From the NCBI RefSeq assembly GCF_000384295.1, contig NZ_KB913037.1, positions 4,412,868 through 4,476,867 of the forward strand: a DNA stretch of 64,000 nucleotides, in the 5' to 3' direction. The notes under the pieces are model-generated. The model worked only from the letters and a program-made list of their open reading frames with translations. It searched no databases and was not told where the DNA came from. Positions 10,575 through 24,572 of the stretch are shown piece by piece. Position 1 is the first letter of the stretch; each line of letters starts with the position of its first letter. The DNA comes from Amycolatopsis balhimycina FH 1894. GTDB lineage: Bacteria > Actinomycetota > Actinomycetes > Mycobacteriales > Pseudonocardiaceae. A program made the translations under genes and the position numbers.

Positions 10575-10621
10575 AAATGCGGCGTAGCTTGGGAGACACA
10601 CCAGGAAGGGACGTGAGGGAC

Positions 10622-11125
10622 ATGGCACCGACCCAGGCCGAGGTCGCCAAGCTCGCCGAGATCCGCGACGAACTGCGCGAGCGCCACCTGCACCCCGCCG
10701 CCGAGCGACCGGCGACGAACGGCCGCGGCATCCACCACACCGCGCTGATCTCCAGCGACGTCGCGCGGACCATCGAGTTCTACCAGGACGTCCTCGGCTT
10801 CCCGCTCACCGAGCTGATCGAGAACCGGGACTACCCGGGCTCCAGCCACTTCTTCTTCGACGTCGGCAACGGCAACGCGGTCGCCTTCTTCGACCTGCCC
10901 GGTCTGGACCTCGGCCCGTACGCGGAAGTCCTCGGTGGACTGCACCACCTGGCGCTGTCGGTCACGCCCGAACGGTGGAGCGTCATCAAGGACAAGCTCG
11001 ACGAGGCCGGCGTGCAGTACCTCCTGGAAAGCAAGACGTCGATCTATCTGTCCGACCCGGACGGTGCCCGTGTCGAGCTGATCTCCGACCCCCTCGGCGA
11101 GATGTACGGCGAGAAGATCGGCTGA
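10622..11125 (+). CDS. Single-module VOC family (glyoxalase/extradiol dioxygenase fold) protein
   Basis: The ATG at 10622 gives 167 aa; a GTG at 10613 is possible. The vicinal-oxygen-chelate pattern is complete for one module: GIHHTALISSD (first His), LGGLHHLALSV (second His) and DGARVELISDP (Glu), the 2-His-1-Glu metal triad. Classical extradiol dioxygenases have two such modules and about 300 aa, so this protein would act as a dimer or as an isomerase/lyase. Its position divergent from two meta-cleavage enzymes suggests a place in the same aromatic or lactone breakdown route. A direct ring-cleavage role is speculative. Confidence 0.78.
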   Translation: MAPTQAEVAKLAEIRDELRERHLHPAAERPATNGRGIHHTALISSDVARTIEFYQDVLGFPLTELIENRDYPGSSHFFFDVGNGNAVAFFDLPGLDLGPYAEVLGGLHHLALSVTPERWSVIKDKLDEAGVQYLLESKTSIYLSDPDGARVELISDPLGEMYGEKIG

Positions 11126-11160
11126 AAGCGTGGTCCGGGCGTCGCGCGCCAACTAGCCTG

Positions 11161-11260
11161 TGCCGATCGCGACTGATCCGATCACAGTCACGGCCGGATG
11201 GCTTCGGAGCAACGGTTACGTGCCGTTCAGGGGGCCGGCCTGCTTTTGACCGGATCAGTC
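11161..11260 (+). ncRNA. Structured leader RNA, copy A (unrecognised riboswitch-like motif)
   Basis: Closing stem P1 is a perfect 10-bp pairing GACTGATCCG (11171-11180) with CGGATCAGTC (11251-11260). Inside, P2 is GGCCGG (11192-11197) with CCGGCC (11235-11240). P2 encloses two hairpins: GCT/AGC (11201-11210) and AACGG/CCGTT (11211-11227). A homologous segment at 22769-22870 keeps all stems with compensatory changes, for example pair G11175-C11256 becomes A-U and G11197-C11235 becomes A-U. The block between P2 arms is nearly invariant. The ribosome site GGAGG (11278-11282) and ATG 11287 follow. I do not recognise the class; ligand sensing is inference. Confidence 0.75.
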
Positions 11261-11286
11261 ACCTGTGCGCGACGCCTGGAGGTCCG

Positions 11287-11859
11287 ATGCCCGACTGGTC
11301 GCTCTCCCGCGCGAAAGCGCGGCTCGATCGCCGCGAACTGCTCGACGAACTCACCGCGCGCACCCGGTTCGAGGTGCGACTGCACCTGAACGAGCCGGCG
11401 ACGAACGGCGCCTACGACGAGCTCACGAGCATCTTCGCGATCGGGCACGGCGAATGCGCCGCCCTCCTCAAGCACCACCGCCTGCTGCCCTGGTGGGAAC
11501 GATCGCTGTTGTTCCGGTACGCGCGCCGCATGCACGGCAAGGCGATCACGCGCAGTGTCGGCGTGGTTCCCGCCGAAGTGGCCCCGCAGGCGGCCCGCGC
11601 CTTCGGCGCCGAAATCGCCGAACTGGCTCCCGGCGCCGGGGACACCGGCGCGAAGTACGACCTGCAGGGCCGTGGCCTGCTGACCGTGTTCCGGATCGCC
11701 ATCGGCGCCAGGGGCTCGACCTGGCCGGACCGCCACGAGGTCGCGACGACGACCGCCCGCAACATCCTGACGTGCGCGGCGACCTTCGCCCACCGCAAGC
11801 CGTGGCACGTCGTCTGGCCGGTCTATCGCGTGTGTGGCCTGCGCCTGTGGAAGCTTTGA
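11287..11859 (+). CDS. Hypothetical protein downstream of structured RNA copy A
   Basis: A 190-aa protein, ATG 11287 with GGAGG four bases upstream. I do not recognise the family. It is basic and Arg-rich, soluble in appearance, with no signal peptide or membrane helix. Notable segments are RAKARLDRRELLDELTARTRFEV at the start, GHGECAALLKHHRLLPWWERSLLFRYARRMHGK in the middle and TTARNILTCAATFAHRKPWHVVWPV near the end. It is the first gene after the structured leader, so its expression should follow whatever that RNA senses. The CoA-binding gene begins 24 bp after its stop and may share the transcript. Confidence 0.7.
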   Translation: MPDWSLSRAKARLDRRELLDELTARTRFEVRLHLNEPATNGAYDELTSIFAIGHGECAALLKHHRLLPWWERSLLFRYARRMHGKAITRSVGVVPAEVAPQAARAFGAEIAELAPGAGDTGAKYDLQGRGLLTVFRIAIGARGSTWPDRHEVATTTARNILTCAATFAHRKPWHVVWPVYRVCGLRLWKL

Positions 11860-21749: not shown

Positions 21750-21898
21750 TGCCGCCGGTTGCCAGCGCGCAACCGCCATAGGTAGGAAACTTAACCATCG
21801 GATGTTGTACCAATTAGCGTTCGCAAGTACCGCCATTGTTCCGAGTTATTGCAAGATCTTCCGCTGATTCATCGGAGGTGTTACCGTCCAACCCCACC

Positions 21899-21919
21899 CA
21901 GCGGAAAGGCGTACCGCTG
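21899..21919. promoter_or_regulatory. Inverted repeat just upstream of the IclR start
   Basis: CAGCGG (21899-21904) and CCGCTG (21914-21919) with a 9-nt spacer lie about 35 bp before the IclR start. The AGCGGAAA motif recurs at 21919-21926. IclR proteins commonly bind such repeats in their own promoters, so autoregulation is plausible. Confidence 0.35.
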
Positions 21920-21952
21920 AGCGGAAACGGGGAACGTCCAACGGAGGACAAC

Positions 21953-22735
21953 GTGGGACCGGAGCGCGGGCTGGAACAGAGCGGCACTCTCGAACGCGGG
22001 CTGGCAGTGCTCGAGCACGTGGGCCGGCACCAGGAGATTTCCACCAATGCGATCGCGCGGCAACTGGGACTTTCCCGCAGTGCCGCCTACCGCATCGTCG
22101 GCACCCTCAAGAACCTCGAGTACCTCGAAGCCGACCAGGTCACCGGCCGGGTCCGGCTGGGGACGCGGCTGGTCGAGCTCGGGGCGCGGGCGATGGCCGC
22201 CACCGATCTGCACCGGTGTGCGCCGCGGTACCTCGCGTCGCTCGCGGAACGGTCCGGTGAGACCACCTATCTCGCCGTGCCCGACAACGACACCATGGTC
22301 TACGTCGCCACCGAACGCAGTGCCAGCGCCGTGACGCTGGCTTGCCGGCTCGGGACGCGGCGGCCGCAGCACGCGACGTCGCTCGGCAAGGCCTGGCTGG
22401 CCGCGCTGCCCGAGGCCGACCGCGCCGAGCGCGTCCGGCGGATGAAGCTGGATCCCTTGACGCTCAAGACGATCAGCGACCCGCACCGGCTGCTCGACGA
22501 CCTGGCGAAGACGAGCCGCCGGGGCTGGGCGATCGACGAGGTCGAGAACGAGCCGGACGTCGGCTGCGTCGCCGCCGCCGTCCGGGACCACTCGGGACGG
22601 CCGATCGCCGCCATCAGCATCGCCGGGCCGGCGCCGCGGGTGCTGCGCCGGCTCGACGAACTCGGTGCCTCCGTCGCCGGGACCGCCGCCGCCCTGTCCC
22701 TGCGGCTCGGGTACGTCCGGGGCCGGCCCGCCTGA
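21953..22735 (+). CDS. IclR family transcriptional regulator
   Basis: The GTG 21953 is preceded by GGAGG with 7-nt spacing and gives 260 aa, the usual IclR size; the longer frame from 21836 starts with TTG and has no ribosome site. HTH: TLERGLAVLEHVGRHQEISTNAIARQLGLSRSAAYRIVGTLKNLEYLE. The effector domain has ETTYLAVPDNDTMVYVATERS and HATSLGKAWLAALP. IclR proteins often control uptake and breakdown of organic acids. The next gene is a lactate/glycolate-type permease, a fitting target. Confidence 0.9.
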   Translation: MGPERGLEQSGTLERGLAVLEHVGRHQEISTNAIARQLGLSRSAAYRIVGTLKNLEYLEADQVTGRVRLGTRLVELGARAMAATDLHRCAPRYLASLAERSGETTYLAVPDNDTMVYVATERSASAVTLACRLGTRRPQHATSLGKAWLAALPEADRAERVRRMKLDPLTLKTISDPHRLLDDLAKTSRRGWAIDEVENEPDVGCVAAAVRDHSGRPIAAISIAGPAPRVLRRLDELGASVAGTAAALSLRLGYVRGRPA

Positions 22736-22768
22736 TCGCCCGAACCCGGCAAAGAACCCGGCACACTG

Positions 22769-22870
22769 TGCCGATCGTTACTAATCCGACCACAGCCACG
22801 GCCGAATGGCTTCGTAGCAACGGTTACGTGCCGTGCGGGGGGTCGGCCTACTTTTTGGCCAGATTAGTAA
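22769..22870 (+). ncRNA. Structured leader RNA, copy B, before the permease
   Basis: Homologous to 11161-11260. P1 is TTACTAATC (22778-22786) with GATTAGTAA (22862-22870); P2 is GGCCGA (22800-22805) with TCGGCC (22843-22848). The small hairpins are GCT/AGC (22809-22818) and ACGG/CCGT (22820-22834). Compared with copy A, several base pairs change on both sides and stay paired. The last two bases of P1 are the first two of the ribosome site AAGGAG (22869-22874), six bases before the GTG start. Stem formation could therefore control translation initiation. The class is not recognised. Confidence 0.78.
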
Positions 22871-22880
22871 GGAGCCGACC

Positions 22881-24572
22881 GTGACCTGGATCCAGGACTA
22901 CCAGCCGGCGGGCGGGCTGTGGGTTTCCGCGCTGCTCGCCGCGCTCCCGATCATCGTGCTGCTGGTTTCGCTCGGGGTGATCCGCTTCTCCGCGCACCTT
23001 TCGGCGGCACTGGCACTGGTCACCGCGCTGGGCGTGGCCCTGCTGCTGTACCGGATGCCGGCCGCGCTGGCCTTCGACTCCGCGGCGATGGGCCTCGTGT
23101 TCGGCGTGTGGTCGGTCGCCTGGATCGCGTTCCACGCCGTGTACTTCCACAACGTCACCGTCGCCACCGGCCGGTTCGACGCGATCAAGCGCGTGCTCGC
23201 CGGGTTCAGCGAGGACCGGCGGCTGCAGGCGCTGCTCATCGCGTTCAGCTTCGGCGCGCTGCTCGAAGGCGTGGCGGGCGGCGGGTCGCCGATCGCGATC
23301 ACCGCGGCGATGATGGCCGCGCTCGGGTTCCCGCCGGTGAAGGCCGTCGTGCTGGCGCTGCTGGCGAACACCGCGCCGGTGGCGTTCGGCGGGCTGGGCA
23401 ACCCGCTGATCGTGCTCGGCAGGCTGACCGCGCCGATCATGCACCTCAAGCAGGACCAGGCGACCGAGCTGTTCTCGGCGATGGTCGGCCGTCAGGTACC
23501 CGTGCTGGCGCTGATCATCCCGGCGTTCCTGGTCGTGGTCCTGGCCGGCTGGAAGCGCATGCTCGAGGTGTGGCCGGCGGTGCTGACCGCCGGGCTCGCG
23601 TTCGCGGCCATGCAGTTCGTCGCGTCCAACTACATCAGCGCCAGCCTGGTCGACGTCCTCGCCGCGCTCACCGCGATGGCCGCGCTGTGGATCCTGACCC
23701 GGTTCTGGCAGCCGGCGACGGTGTGGCGCTTCGACGGCGAGGAAGCCGCGGTCAAGAGCAAGAGCCTGGGAGCCGCCGAGGCCGAGCGCGGCGCGCTCTA
23801 CGCGTGGATGCCGTACATCATCCTGATCCTGGCGATCTTCCTGTCGCGGATCGGCACGATCTTCAAGAACCTGCCCGGCTGGCTGGACCTGACCAAGCTG
23901 CTGCACAAGGCGGACTGGGTCTTCGCGTGGCCGGGCCTGCACAACCACGTCGTGCAGCACCCGCCGATCACGGCGAAGAACGCGCCGTACGCGGCGACGC
24001 TCACCGTCGACTTCCTGTTCTCCCCGGGCACGATCGCCCTGATCGCCGCGGTGATCGCCGGCTTCGCGATGGGCGCGCGGCCGGGACTGTTGCTGAAGAC
24101 CTACCGGAGCACGCTGTTCCAGATGCGCTGGGCGCTCGCGACGATCTTCATGATCCTGGCGATCGCGTTCGTGATGAACTACTCGGGCGCGACGCAGACG
24201 CTGGGCCTGGCCCTGGCGACGACCGGCGCGGCCTTCCCGCTGTTCTCGGCCTACATCGGCTGGCTGGGCGTGTTCCTGACCGGCTCAGACGCGTCGACGA
24301 ACAGCCTGTTCGGCCCGATGCAGGTGATCTCGGCGCAGCAGCTGAACCTGAACCCGATCCTGGCGGGCGCGACCAACACGTCCGGCGGCGTCATGGGCAA
24401 GATGATCTCGCCGCAGAACCTGTCGATCGGCGCGACGGCGATCGGGCAGAGCGGCAAGGAAGGCTCACTGCTGCGGCAGACATTCCTGTGGTCACTGCTG
24501 CTGACGGCGGTGGTCGGGGTGATCTCCCTGCTCCAGGCGACGATCCTGACGGCGATGATCCCGTCGCCCTAG
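22881..24572 (+). CDS. L-lactate/glycolate permease family protein (LctP)
   Basis: A 563-aa integral membrane protein with 12 or more helices. Typical LctP segments are GGLWVSALLAALPIIVLLVSLGVI at the start, GALLEGVAGGGSPIAITAAMMAALGFPPVKAVVLALLANTAPVAFGGLGNPL, and near the end TGSDASTNSLFGPMQV with SGGVMGKMISPQNLSIGATA. These proteins import lactate or glycolate with protons. The GTG 22881 follows AAGGAG and the structured leader. IclR upstream and an HD hydrolase 9 bp downstream make a likely functional unit. Lactate versus glycolate cannot be told apart. Confidence 0.93.
   Translation: MTWIQDYQPAGGLWVSALLAALPIIVLLVSLGVIRFSAHLSAALALVTALGVALLLYRMPAALAFDSAAMGLVFGVWSVAWIAFHAVYFHNVTVATGRFDAIKRVLAGFSEDRRLQALLIAFSFGALLEGVAGGGSPIAITAAMMAALGFPPVKAVVLALLANTAPVAFGGLGNPLIVLGRLTAPIMHLKQDQATELFSAMVGRQVPVLALIIPAFLVVVLAGWKRMLEVWPAVLTAGLAFAAMQFVASNYISASLVDVLAALTAMAALWILTRFWQPATVWRFDGEEAAVKSKSLGAAEAERGALYAWMPYIILILAIFLSRIGTIFKNLPGWLDLTKLLHKADWVFAWPGLHNHVVQHPPITAKNAPYAATLTVDFLFSPGTIALIAAVIAGFAMGARPGLLLKTYRSTLFQMRWALATIFMILAIAFVMNYSGATQTLGLALATTGAAFPLFSAYIGWLGVFLTGSDASTNSLFGPMQVISAQQLNLNPILAGATNTSGGVMGKMISPQNLSIGATAIGQSGKEGSLLRQTFLWSLLLTAVVGVISLLQATILTAMIPSP

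Follow-up and report, generated by a model that had tools for sequence, protein, structure and literature searches.

REP elements are described, in the portion of the literature drawn upon here, as short dispersed hairpins of 21–65 nt with a short guide at the hairpin foot (PMC6006769), whilst IS608 is characterised, in the section of its source used herein, by the lack of a duplication and by the pairing of a few element bases with the target (PMC5934647). The repeat reported herein, of which two copies lie in a 64,000-nt stretch of the Amycolatopsis balhimycina FH 1894 genome (NZ_KB913037.1; hereafter the window), shares with REP elements, and with REPINs and their RAYT (TnpA-REP), the form of a short, dispersed, largely intergenic hairpin without an enzyme of its own and with what may be a short guide at its foot, insofar as the same excerpt sets these out (PMC6006769). 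It differs in its length, which is 104 nt against the 21–65 nt given there for REP, in possessing a conserved internal loop and a target that is split in the middle, and in that no Y1/RAYT gene is found in 80 genomes of the genus. Miniature derivatives of IS200/IS605 are similarly free of a duplication and form few base pairs between element and target, as far as the excerpted source describes them (PMC5934647); the Amycolatopsis element, in contrast, has no separate left-end and right-end hairpins and no Y1 enzyme in the 80 genomes, its target is not whole at one side, and only two bases of its foot track that target.

Bacterial MITEs and small repeats such as RU, BOX and RUP are likewise small, non-coding, present in many copies and largely intergenic in the parts of the reports used (PMC2229807, PMC2759123, PMC3049150), but the Amycolatopsis element lacks terminal inverted repeats beyond TACT/AGTA and displays no consistent duplication. 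Its read junctions, with a left end of CTGTG and a right end of AGTA, are not those of a MITE derived from a DDE transposon. Like the structured RNAs of Rfam, it has an internal loop that hardly varies, enclosed by covarying stems, but no family is assigned to it at gathering score. A resemblance to integron attC sites was rejected by eye, by comparison with the attC motif as generally known. Because Y1 is lacking and reverse transcriptase is patchy, the repeat is likened to a hairpin element whose foot tracks the target, and it is not placed in a family; the guide-and-hairpin scheme of IS608 and REP may serve as the nearest working model.

The repeat constitutes a new small mobile-element family whose selected structure lies on the complementary strand, and is not a riboswitch. 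Very probably, it is a non-autonomous mobile element of approximately 103–105 nt that is without a clear ORF, has neither terminal inverted repeats nor a target duplication of the classical kind, and would be moved in trans. Strong covariation of stems before genes can thus stem from a mobile hairpin rather than from a riboswitch.

Two copies within the window

Both copies, which display 86 % identity over their aligned core, lie on the + strand, in the orientation as first described, and are made up as follows.

11158..11262, + strand: element copy 1, an exact 105-nt insertion relative to 28 empty orthologous loci, and a model match
11157..11163, + strand: CCTGTGC, left 7-mer of the identical pair bounding copy 1 (locus comparison)
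11158..11168, + strand: conserved, unpaired tail of copy 1, outside the stem, CTGTGCCGATC (column conservation, 176 sites)
11169..11184, + strand: P1 5′ arm of copy 1 (pair listing, covariation)
11192..11197, + strand: P2 5′ arm of copy 1 (alignment pairs 38:85 to 43:80)
11235..11240, + strand: P2 3′ arm of copy 1 (covariation analysis)
11247..11262, + strand: P1 3′ arm of copy 1 (pair listing)
11262..11268, + strand: CCTGTGC, right 7-mer of the identical pair bounding copy 1 (locus comparison)
11287..11859, + strand: gene downstream of copy 1, without a Pfam family at E 1e-5
22766..22869, + strand: element copy 2, 104 nt, with a clean right junction
22777..22792, + strand: P1 5′ arm of copy 2 (pair listing)
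22800..22805, + strand: P2 5′ arm of copy 2 (covariation analysis)
22843..22848, + strand: P2 3′ arm of copy 2 (covariation analysis)
22856..22871, + strand: P1 3′ arm of copy 2 (pair listing)
22881..24572, + strand: L-lactate permease family gene after copy 2 (PF02652, Pfam)

An earlier note on this DNA had aligned two segments here and read them as a selected, cis-acting RNA, an interpretation that is partly supported. The segments exist and align, as part of a slightly longer unit, and every base pair named in it lies where it had been placed.

The identical 7-mers at either side of copy 1 allow its junction to slide by up to 7 nt; CCTGTGC is single in empty relatives of this locus. As CTGTGC of the left 7-mer is the conserved start of the element, the pair is not counted as a target duplication. 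The first two bases of the P1 5′ arm (from 11169) are the positions of the target-tracking dinucleotide considered below. In copy 2, the left flank carries approximately 14 nt more than empty relatives (by eye), the outermost pair of the listing (22777–22871) is G.G, and the last two bases of the P1 3′ arm (AG) are host DNA belonging to the permease ribosome site.

Upstream of copy 1 is a gene for a glyoxalase-superfamily protein (10577–11125; PF00903), and upstream of copy 2 one for an IclR-type regulator (21836–22735; PF01614, PF09339). Copy 1 additionally sits in the loop of a 9-bp inverted repeat, GCGTCGCGC ... GCGCGACGC (11139–11275), which is also present in many empty relatives (by eye).

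Family size and distribution

BLASTN with copy 1 gives 40 scored places (of 58 candidates) in the 10.86-Mb host genome, both window copies included, with E-values of 3.2e-60 to 7.1e-13, so that the similarity well exceeds chance. A covariance model was constructed from 39 of these, leaving out one copy with an internal duplication, and returns 48 matches at E ≤ 3.3e-7 in the same genome (150 of 11484 first-look candidates scored), amongst which are the 39 copies used to build it. Relaxing the threshold to E ≤ 1 yields 60 matches, with 11 of the 12 additional ones being reverse-strand echoes of real copies. Within the genus, 44 of 80 genomes are carriers, each with 1 to 48 matches (best 48 candidates per genome scored). 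Flank de-duplication (250 matches, 322 loci) leaves 215 unique full copies, which represent 176 independent sites.

Across the order, a model search of 397 genomes from 85 genera, in which 9 candidates were scored per genome and weak relatives could be missed, produces six matching genomes, all of them in Amycolatopsis (1 of 85 genera). A pattern scan returns at least 120 loci in named genomes; of the 80 listed, 79 are from Amycolatopsis, under 18 names, and the single Caballeronia match amongst the listed loci is unconfirmed by the covariance model. No match to the element is present in plasmids and phages by distant BLASTN, or in viral contigs by pattern scan (0 matches). The family has so far been found in Amycolatopsis only. 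With regard to described RNAs, the only match in the window to Rfam release 15 at gathering score is a tRNA, with none for the element, and permissive thresholds on both strands give sub-threshold matches at chance level or none; in this respect the original statement that no known riboswitch class could be matched stands. Literature searches returned no description of this repeat among the matches listed.

Empty sites and insertion target

Base-by-base comparison covered the 29 best orthologous loci outside the window, from 70 matching genomes for copy 1 and 76 for copy 2. Copy 1 is absent from 28 of the 29 and present in one relative only (G054), as an exact 105-nt insertion (locus L102), whilst copy 2 is absent from all 29, meaning that the permease that the earlier note had tied to the element is without it in every aligned relative. 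The AAGGAG into which P1 of copy 2 runs, previously taken to suggest translational control, is already present in 20 of the 28 relatives for which the gap is fully printed (by eye); the stem reaches it because the insertion happened to land there. One relative (L097) has a longer gap at this locus than the others. In the pre-permease gap of four relatives (L072, L091, L093 and L094, orthologous to window positions 22710–22900) there is a second, unrelated palindromic repeat with the core TTGAATGAGTCATTCA, a core that also occurs elsewhere in the host genome (L009:347-362 and L036:2524-2539).

The joined flanks of 38 further copies were compared with two or three close relatives, and 28 of them gave aligned relatives. 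Junctions are readable by eye at 17 of these loci (L005, L008, L011, L012, L015, L017, L018, L020, L028, L029, L032, L033, L034, L035, L038, L039 and L040); the remaining 11 are too diverged at the junction or, in the case of L037, occupied in G078 as well. The relative at L040 carries 27 extra nt, and where relatives disagreed the closer one, G078, was used. By eye, the left dinucleotide of the empty target is TA in 15 of the 17 and GA in two, and the base after the cut is A in 11, C in five and T in one. The two bases to the right of the cut are unchanged between filled and empty sites in 14 of 17 (exceptions L017, L018 and L035), and filled sites harbour no consistent duplication. Judged from these junctions, insertion into new sites is precise and takes place at TA^A-type targets, leaving CTGTG...(G)TA between the target halves; copy 1 and L036, both with GTCAC ends, fit a TA^AC junction imperfectly. 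That the element is mobile is, on this comparison, close to certain. A duplication of TA was rejected as an account of the ends, since the left and right dinucleotides are often unequal among the 215 copies.

Head-to-tail arrays of two or three copies, all with the same joint and a period of approximately 102–105 nt, are found at five fetched loci (L066, L157, L158, L159 and L297). At L277, two copies lie 170 nt apart. End patterns in four genomes, compared by eye and not exhaustively, reveal no half elements hinting at a longer autonomous copy, although longer copies with diverged ends could escape such a comparison; the eight ends without a listed partner were fetched, and all eight belong to near-full short copies.

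Secondary structure and folding strand

On comparison of the copies, the long stem P1, the conserved internal loop, P2 and the unpaired tail are evidently all kept. In P1, pair 20:102 is C-G in 90 copies, T-A in 61 and C.A in 22, and pair 21:101 is A-T in 109, G-C in 40 and A.C in 17, with covariation well above shuffles for both. Pair 41:82 of P2 is C-G in 102 copies and G-C in 44, marking subfamilies, with the other 30 mostly unpaired there. The pattern-scan loci, at least 120 in number, were found by an exact pattern that enters P1 only in its inner right arm, and conservation of those columns is therefore partly imposed. A pairing of the tail, CTGTG:CACAG, was dropped, as departures from it in several copies are uncompensated (by eye).

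Mismatches within P1 (17:105 to 30:92) are one-sided, with 157 of A.C/C.A type and 20 of G.T/T.G type. The direction is the same in each subfamily (109:12, 28:3 and 20:5) and is retained without the frequent pair 27:95 (86 A.C, 17 G.T). Both window copies display it on the + strand, at C11170.A11261 and A11181.C11250 in copy 1 and, inside the element, at C22787.A22861 and A22789.C22859 in copy 2, so that the fully paired P1 described earlier does not exist on that strand and is continuous only on the complement, as G.U. Transitions at unpaired columns occur at roughly similar rates (C>T 5.5 %, G>A 5.2 %, T>C 5.7 %, A>G 3.6 %), which makes a strand-biased mutation process unlikely. Given that A.C on the + strand is G.U on its complement, these mismatches argue strongly that the complementary strand is the folding, and thus the selected, molecule for P1. 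Counting A.C against G.T mismatches in this way offers a cheap test for which strand of a repeat folds.

The RNAalifold consensus energy is in line with this, at −66.6 for the complement and −55.8 for the + strand, whilst folds of single copies are about equal, the complement being more stable in 108 of 176 and the + strand in 66; for copy 2 of the window, the + strand fold is better by 0.3 kcal/mol. Pairs in P3 are biased oppositely (G.T 112, A.C 40), and the apical part therefore does not carry the strand signal of P1. This reversal may reflect poor apical alignment between subfamilies, for want of any other explanation.

Correspondence between the stem foot and the target

The outermost pairs of P1, 15:107 and 16:106, are formed between an internal dinucleotide and the host dinucleotide at the right of the insertion. 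Anchoring was possible at 163 of 176 sites, and amongst these, dinucleotide and flank match in both bases at 108, compared with 71.5 (sd 3.5) in shuffles, whilst no excess is seen one pair further out (44, shuffles 49.8). The dinucleotide is GT at 121 of the 163 sites. Of the 42 copies with a different dinucleotide, only five adjoin AC, and 20 agree with their own flank at both positions, for which shuffles give a mean of 5.6 and a maximum of 15 in 5000. Where the empty site of such a copy is unchanged, it matches the empty target in both bases in five of five cases (L008, L028, L029, L032 and L038); L017 and L035, non-GT copies with a changed flank, were left out of this count. Pairing is not required, however, as 33 of the 70 sites with a flank other than AC have GT beside a mismatching target.

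Tracking of the target is confined to the outer two bases. In the 46 copies without TA at inner foot positions 17–18, these bases match positions 104–105 in 35 cases and the left dinucleotide in five, and hence follow the right end of the element. Non-GT variants are shared with one of the three nearest relatives in 5 of 48 cases (shuffles 6.1), and the outer dinucleotide seems to be adjusted to the target copy by copy, without inheritance. These counts show that two host bases complete the foot of P1, with the matching internal dinucleotide tracking the target in individual copies; in a role for target pairing as such we have moderate confidence. Selection on an inherited RNA hardly accounts for covariation that extends into host DNA, and the two covarying pairs that reach the host thus act as a built-in control for the covariation argument.

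Gene context

For 26 of the 176 sites the available flank was insufficient, and 150 were used for gene context, with CDS taken from a crude gene caller of our own. Of these, 113 lie between genes or at a stop codon, 20 are no more than 30 nt from the end of a predicted CDS, and 17 are inside a predicted CDS at more than 30 nt from its end; as a baseline, 622 of the 786 TA^[AC] sites in the window are inside a CDS. A stop codon is split at eleven sites, in 10 cases in the + direction of the element, as a TA^A target predicts. The four possible arrangements of neighbours at the 112 intergenic sites having both are represented 31, 44, 24 and 13 times, with a same-strand downstream gene at 55. No neighbouring gene family recurs more often than the commonest cluster, which is present at 7 of 172 loci. 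A recurrent neighbour was accordingly rejected as mobiliser, the 14 printed clusters looking like ordinary families (by eye).

These figures bear directly on whether the element is a cis-regulatory RNA, be it a riboswitch or a translational control of the genes that follow. Covarying stems, a conserved core and the position of both window copies before a same-strand gene, which is true of these two, had led the earlier note to this reading and to favour a selected RNA over a mobile repeat. The conserved, covarying structure stands, but it belongs to a dispersed mobile repeat with precise empty sites. A same-strand downstream gene at about half of the intergenic sites renders the two window cases a chance expectation, and on it the riboswitch reading fails; moreover, the structured strand is antisense to that gene orientation, the locus is empty in relatives whose flanking genes align, and neighbour families recur at no more than 7 of 172 loci. 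Cis-regulation is therefore almost certainly not what the element is for, and effects on neighbouring genes would instead be by-products of insertion.

Mechanism and alternative explanations

In the mechanism proposed here, a candidate enzyme acting in trans would recognise the folded complementary strand, as RNA or as single-stranded DNA. The stem foot would be brought to a short target by pairing that tolerates mismatches, both ends of the element would be joined at that target, and the matching dinucleotide would be rewritten to fit it, either during insertion or later.

Whether such an enzyme is of the HUH single-tyrosine type, acting on an IS200/IS605- or REP-like single-stranded DNA element with a short guide beside the hairpin foot, can be weighed against several observations. 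The lack of a target duplication, a hairpin adjoining the end and foot bases that pair with the target, as in the excerpted accounts of IS608 (PMC5934647) and REP (PMC6006769), all speak for it. We nevertheless regard it as rather unlikely, as the Y1 transposase family (PF01797; IS200/REP) is detected at E 1e-5 in none of the 80 genus genomes, with 5 of 14 control genomes positive, the target is split (TA^AC) and not kept 5′ of the left end, and the copies display no two-block strand segregation along the chromosome (by eye, origin not located). The restriction of G.U-type wobble in P1 to one strand, together with the lack of a duplication and a foot that pairs across the junction, would suit an RNA-borne route, whereby RNA of the complementary strand base-pairs at the target and either inserts through reverse splicing or serves as template for a reverse transcriptase. 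That route is unlikely: PF00078 is absent at E 1e-5 from 20 of 44 carriers, including G028 with its 34 copies, and is commoner in non-carriers (29 of 36), which disfavours reverse transcriptase as the mobiliser, and the self-splicing introns known to us are all far larger than 104 nt. A protein-free minimal mobile RNA, in which the transcript of the complement folds, its foot pairs with the target across the cut and insertion outside the Y1 and reverse-transcriptase families rewrites the foot, is a speculative extension that we consider improbable.

A further alternative is recombination or transposition of double-stranded DNA at a 2-bp TA core, through an IS110/IS607-type recombinase or a TA-duplicating enzyme for which the hairpin is the binding structure. 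It draws on the 104 of 215 copies with TA on both sides, whose ends thereby read TACT...AGTA, and on head-to-tail arrays joined at the same point. Unequal cores, such as those of the 27 of 215 copies with TA at the left and CA at the right, and the right GA or CA at L012, L029 and L039 despite an empty target of TA, weigh against such a core, which would also leave the strand-specific wobble and the tracking dinucleotide unexplained, and we hold it to be quite doubtful. It is possible, if on balance somewhat unlikely, that covariation of the foot arises solely because DNA quasi-palindromes are corrected by template switching after insertion, pairing playing no part in target choice. Foot variants that are not inherited, and GT at mismatched targets, are what correction of this kind would give, whilst the sharp stop of the effect after two bases and the A.C/G.T asymmetry are not accounted for by it. 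For the non-autonomous element preferred here, the enzyme question is a testable one, with 44 carriers and 36 non-carriers available and with sites that differ between close species of a genus lacking the usual single-strand transposase.

Variant forms

Subfamilies B and C (e.g. L160–L166 and L173–L176) possess a different P2 and inner sequence, GGCGGG/CCCGCC and GGCGGA/TCCGCC, whilst the loop and P1 are much the same. A single 69-nt copy (L167, G000:C1:3682575-3682643) is without P2 and the apical hairpin and keeps the tail and P1, and may be a deletion or a minimal form of the element.
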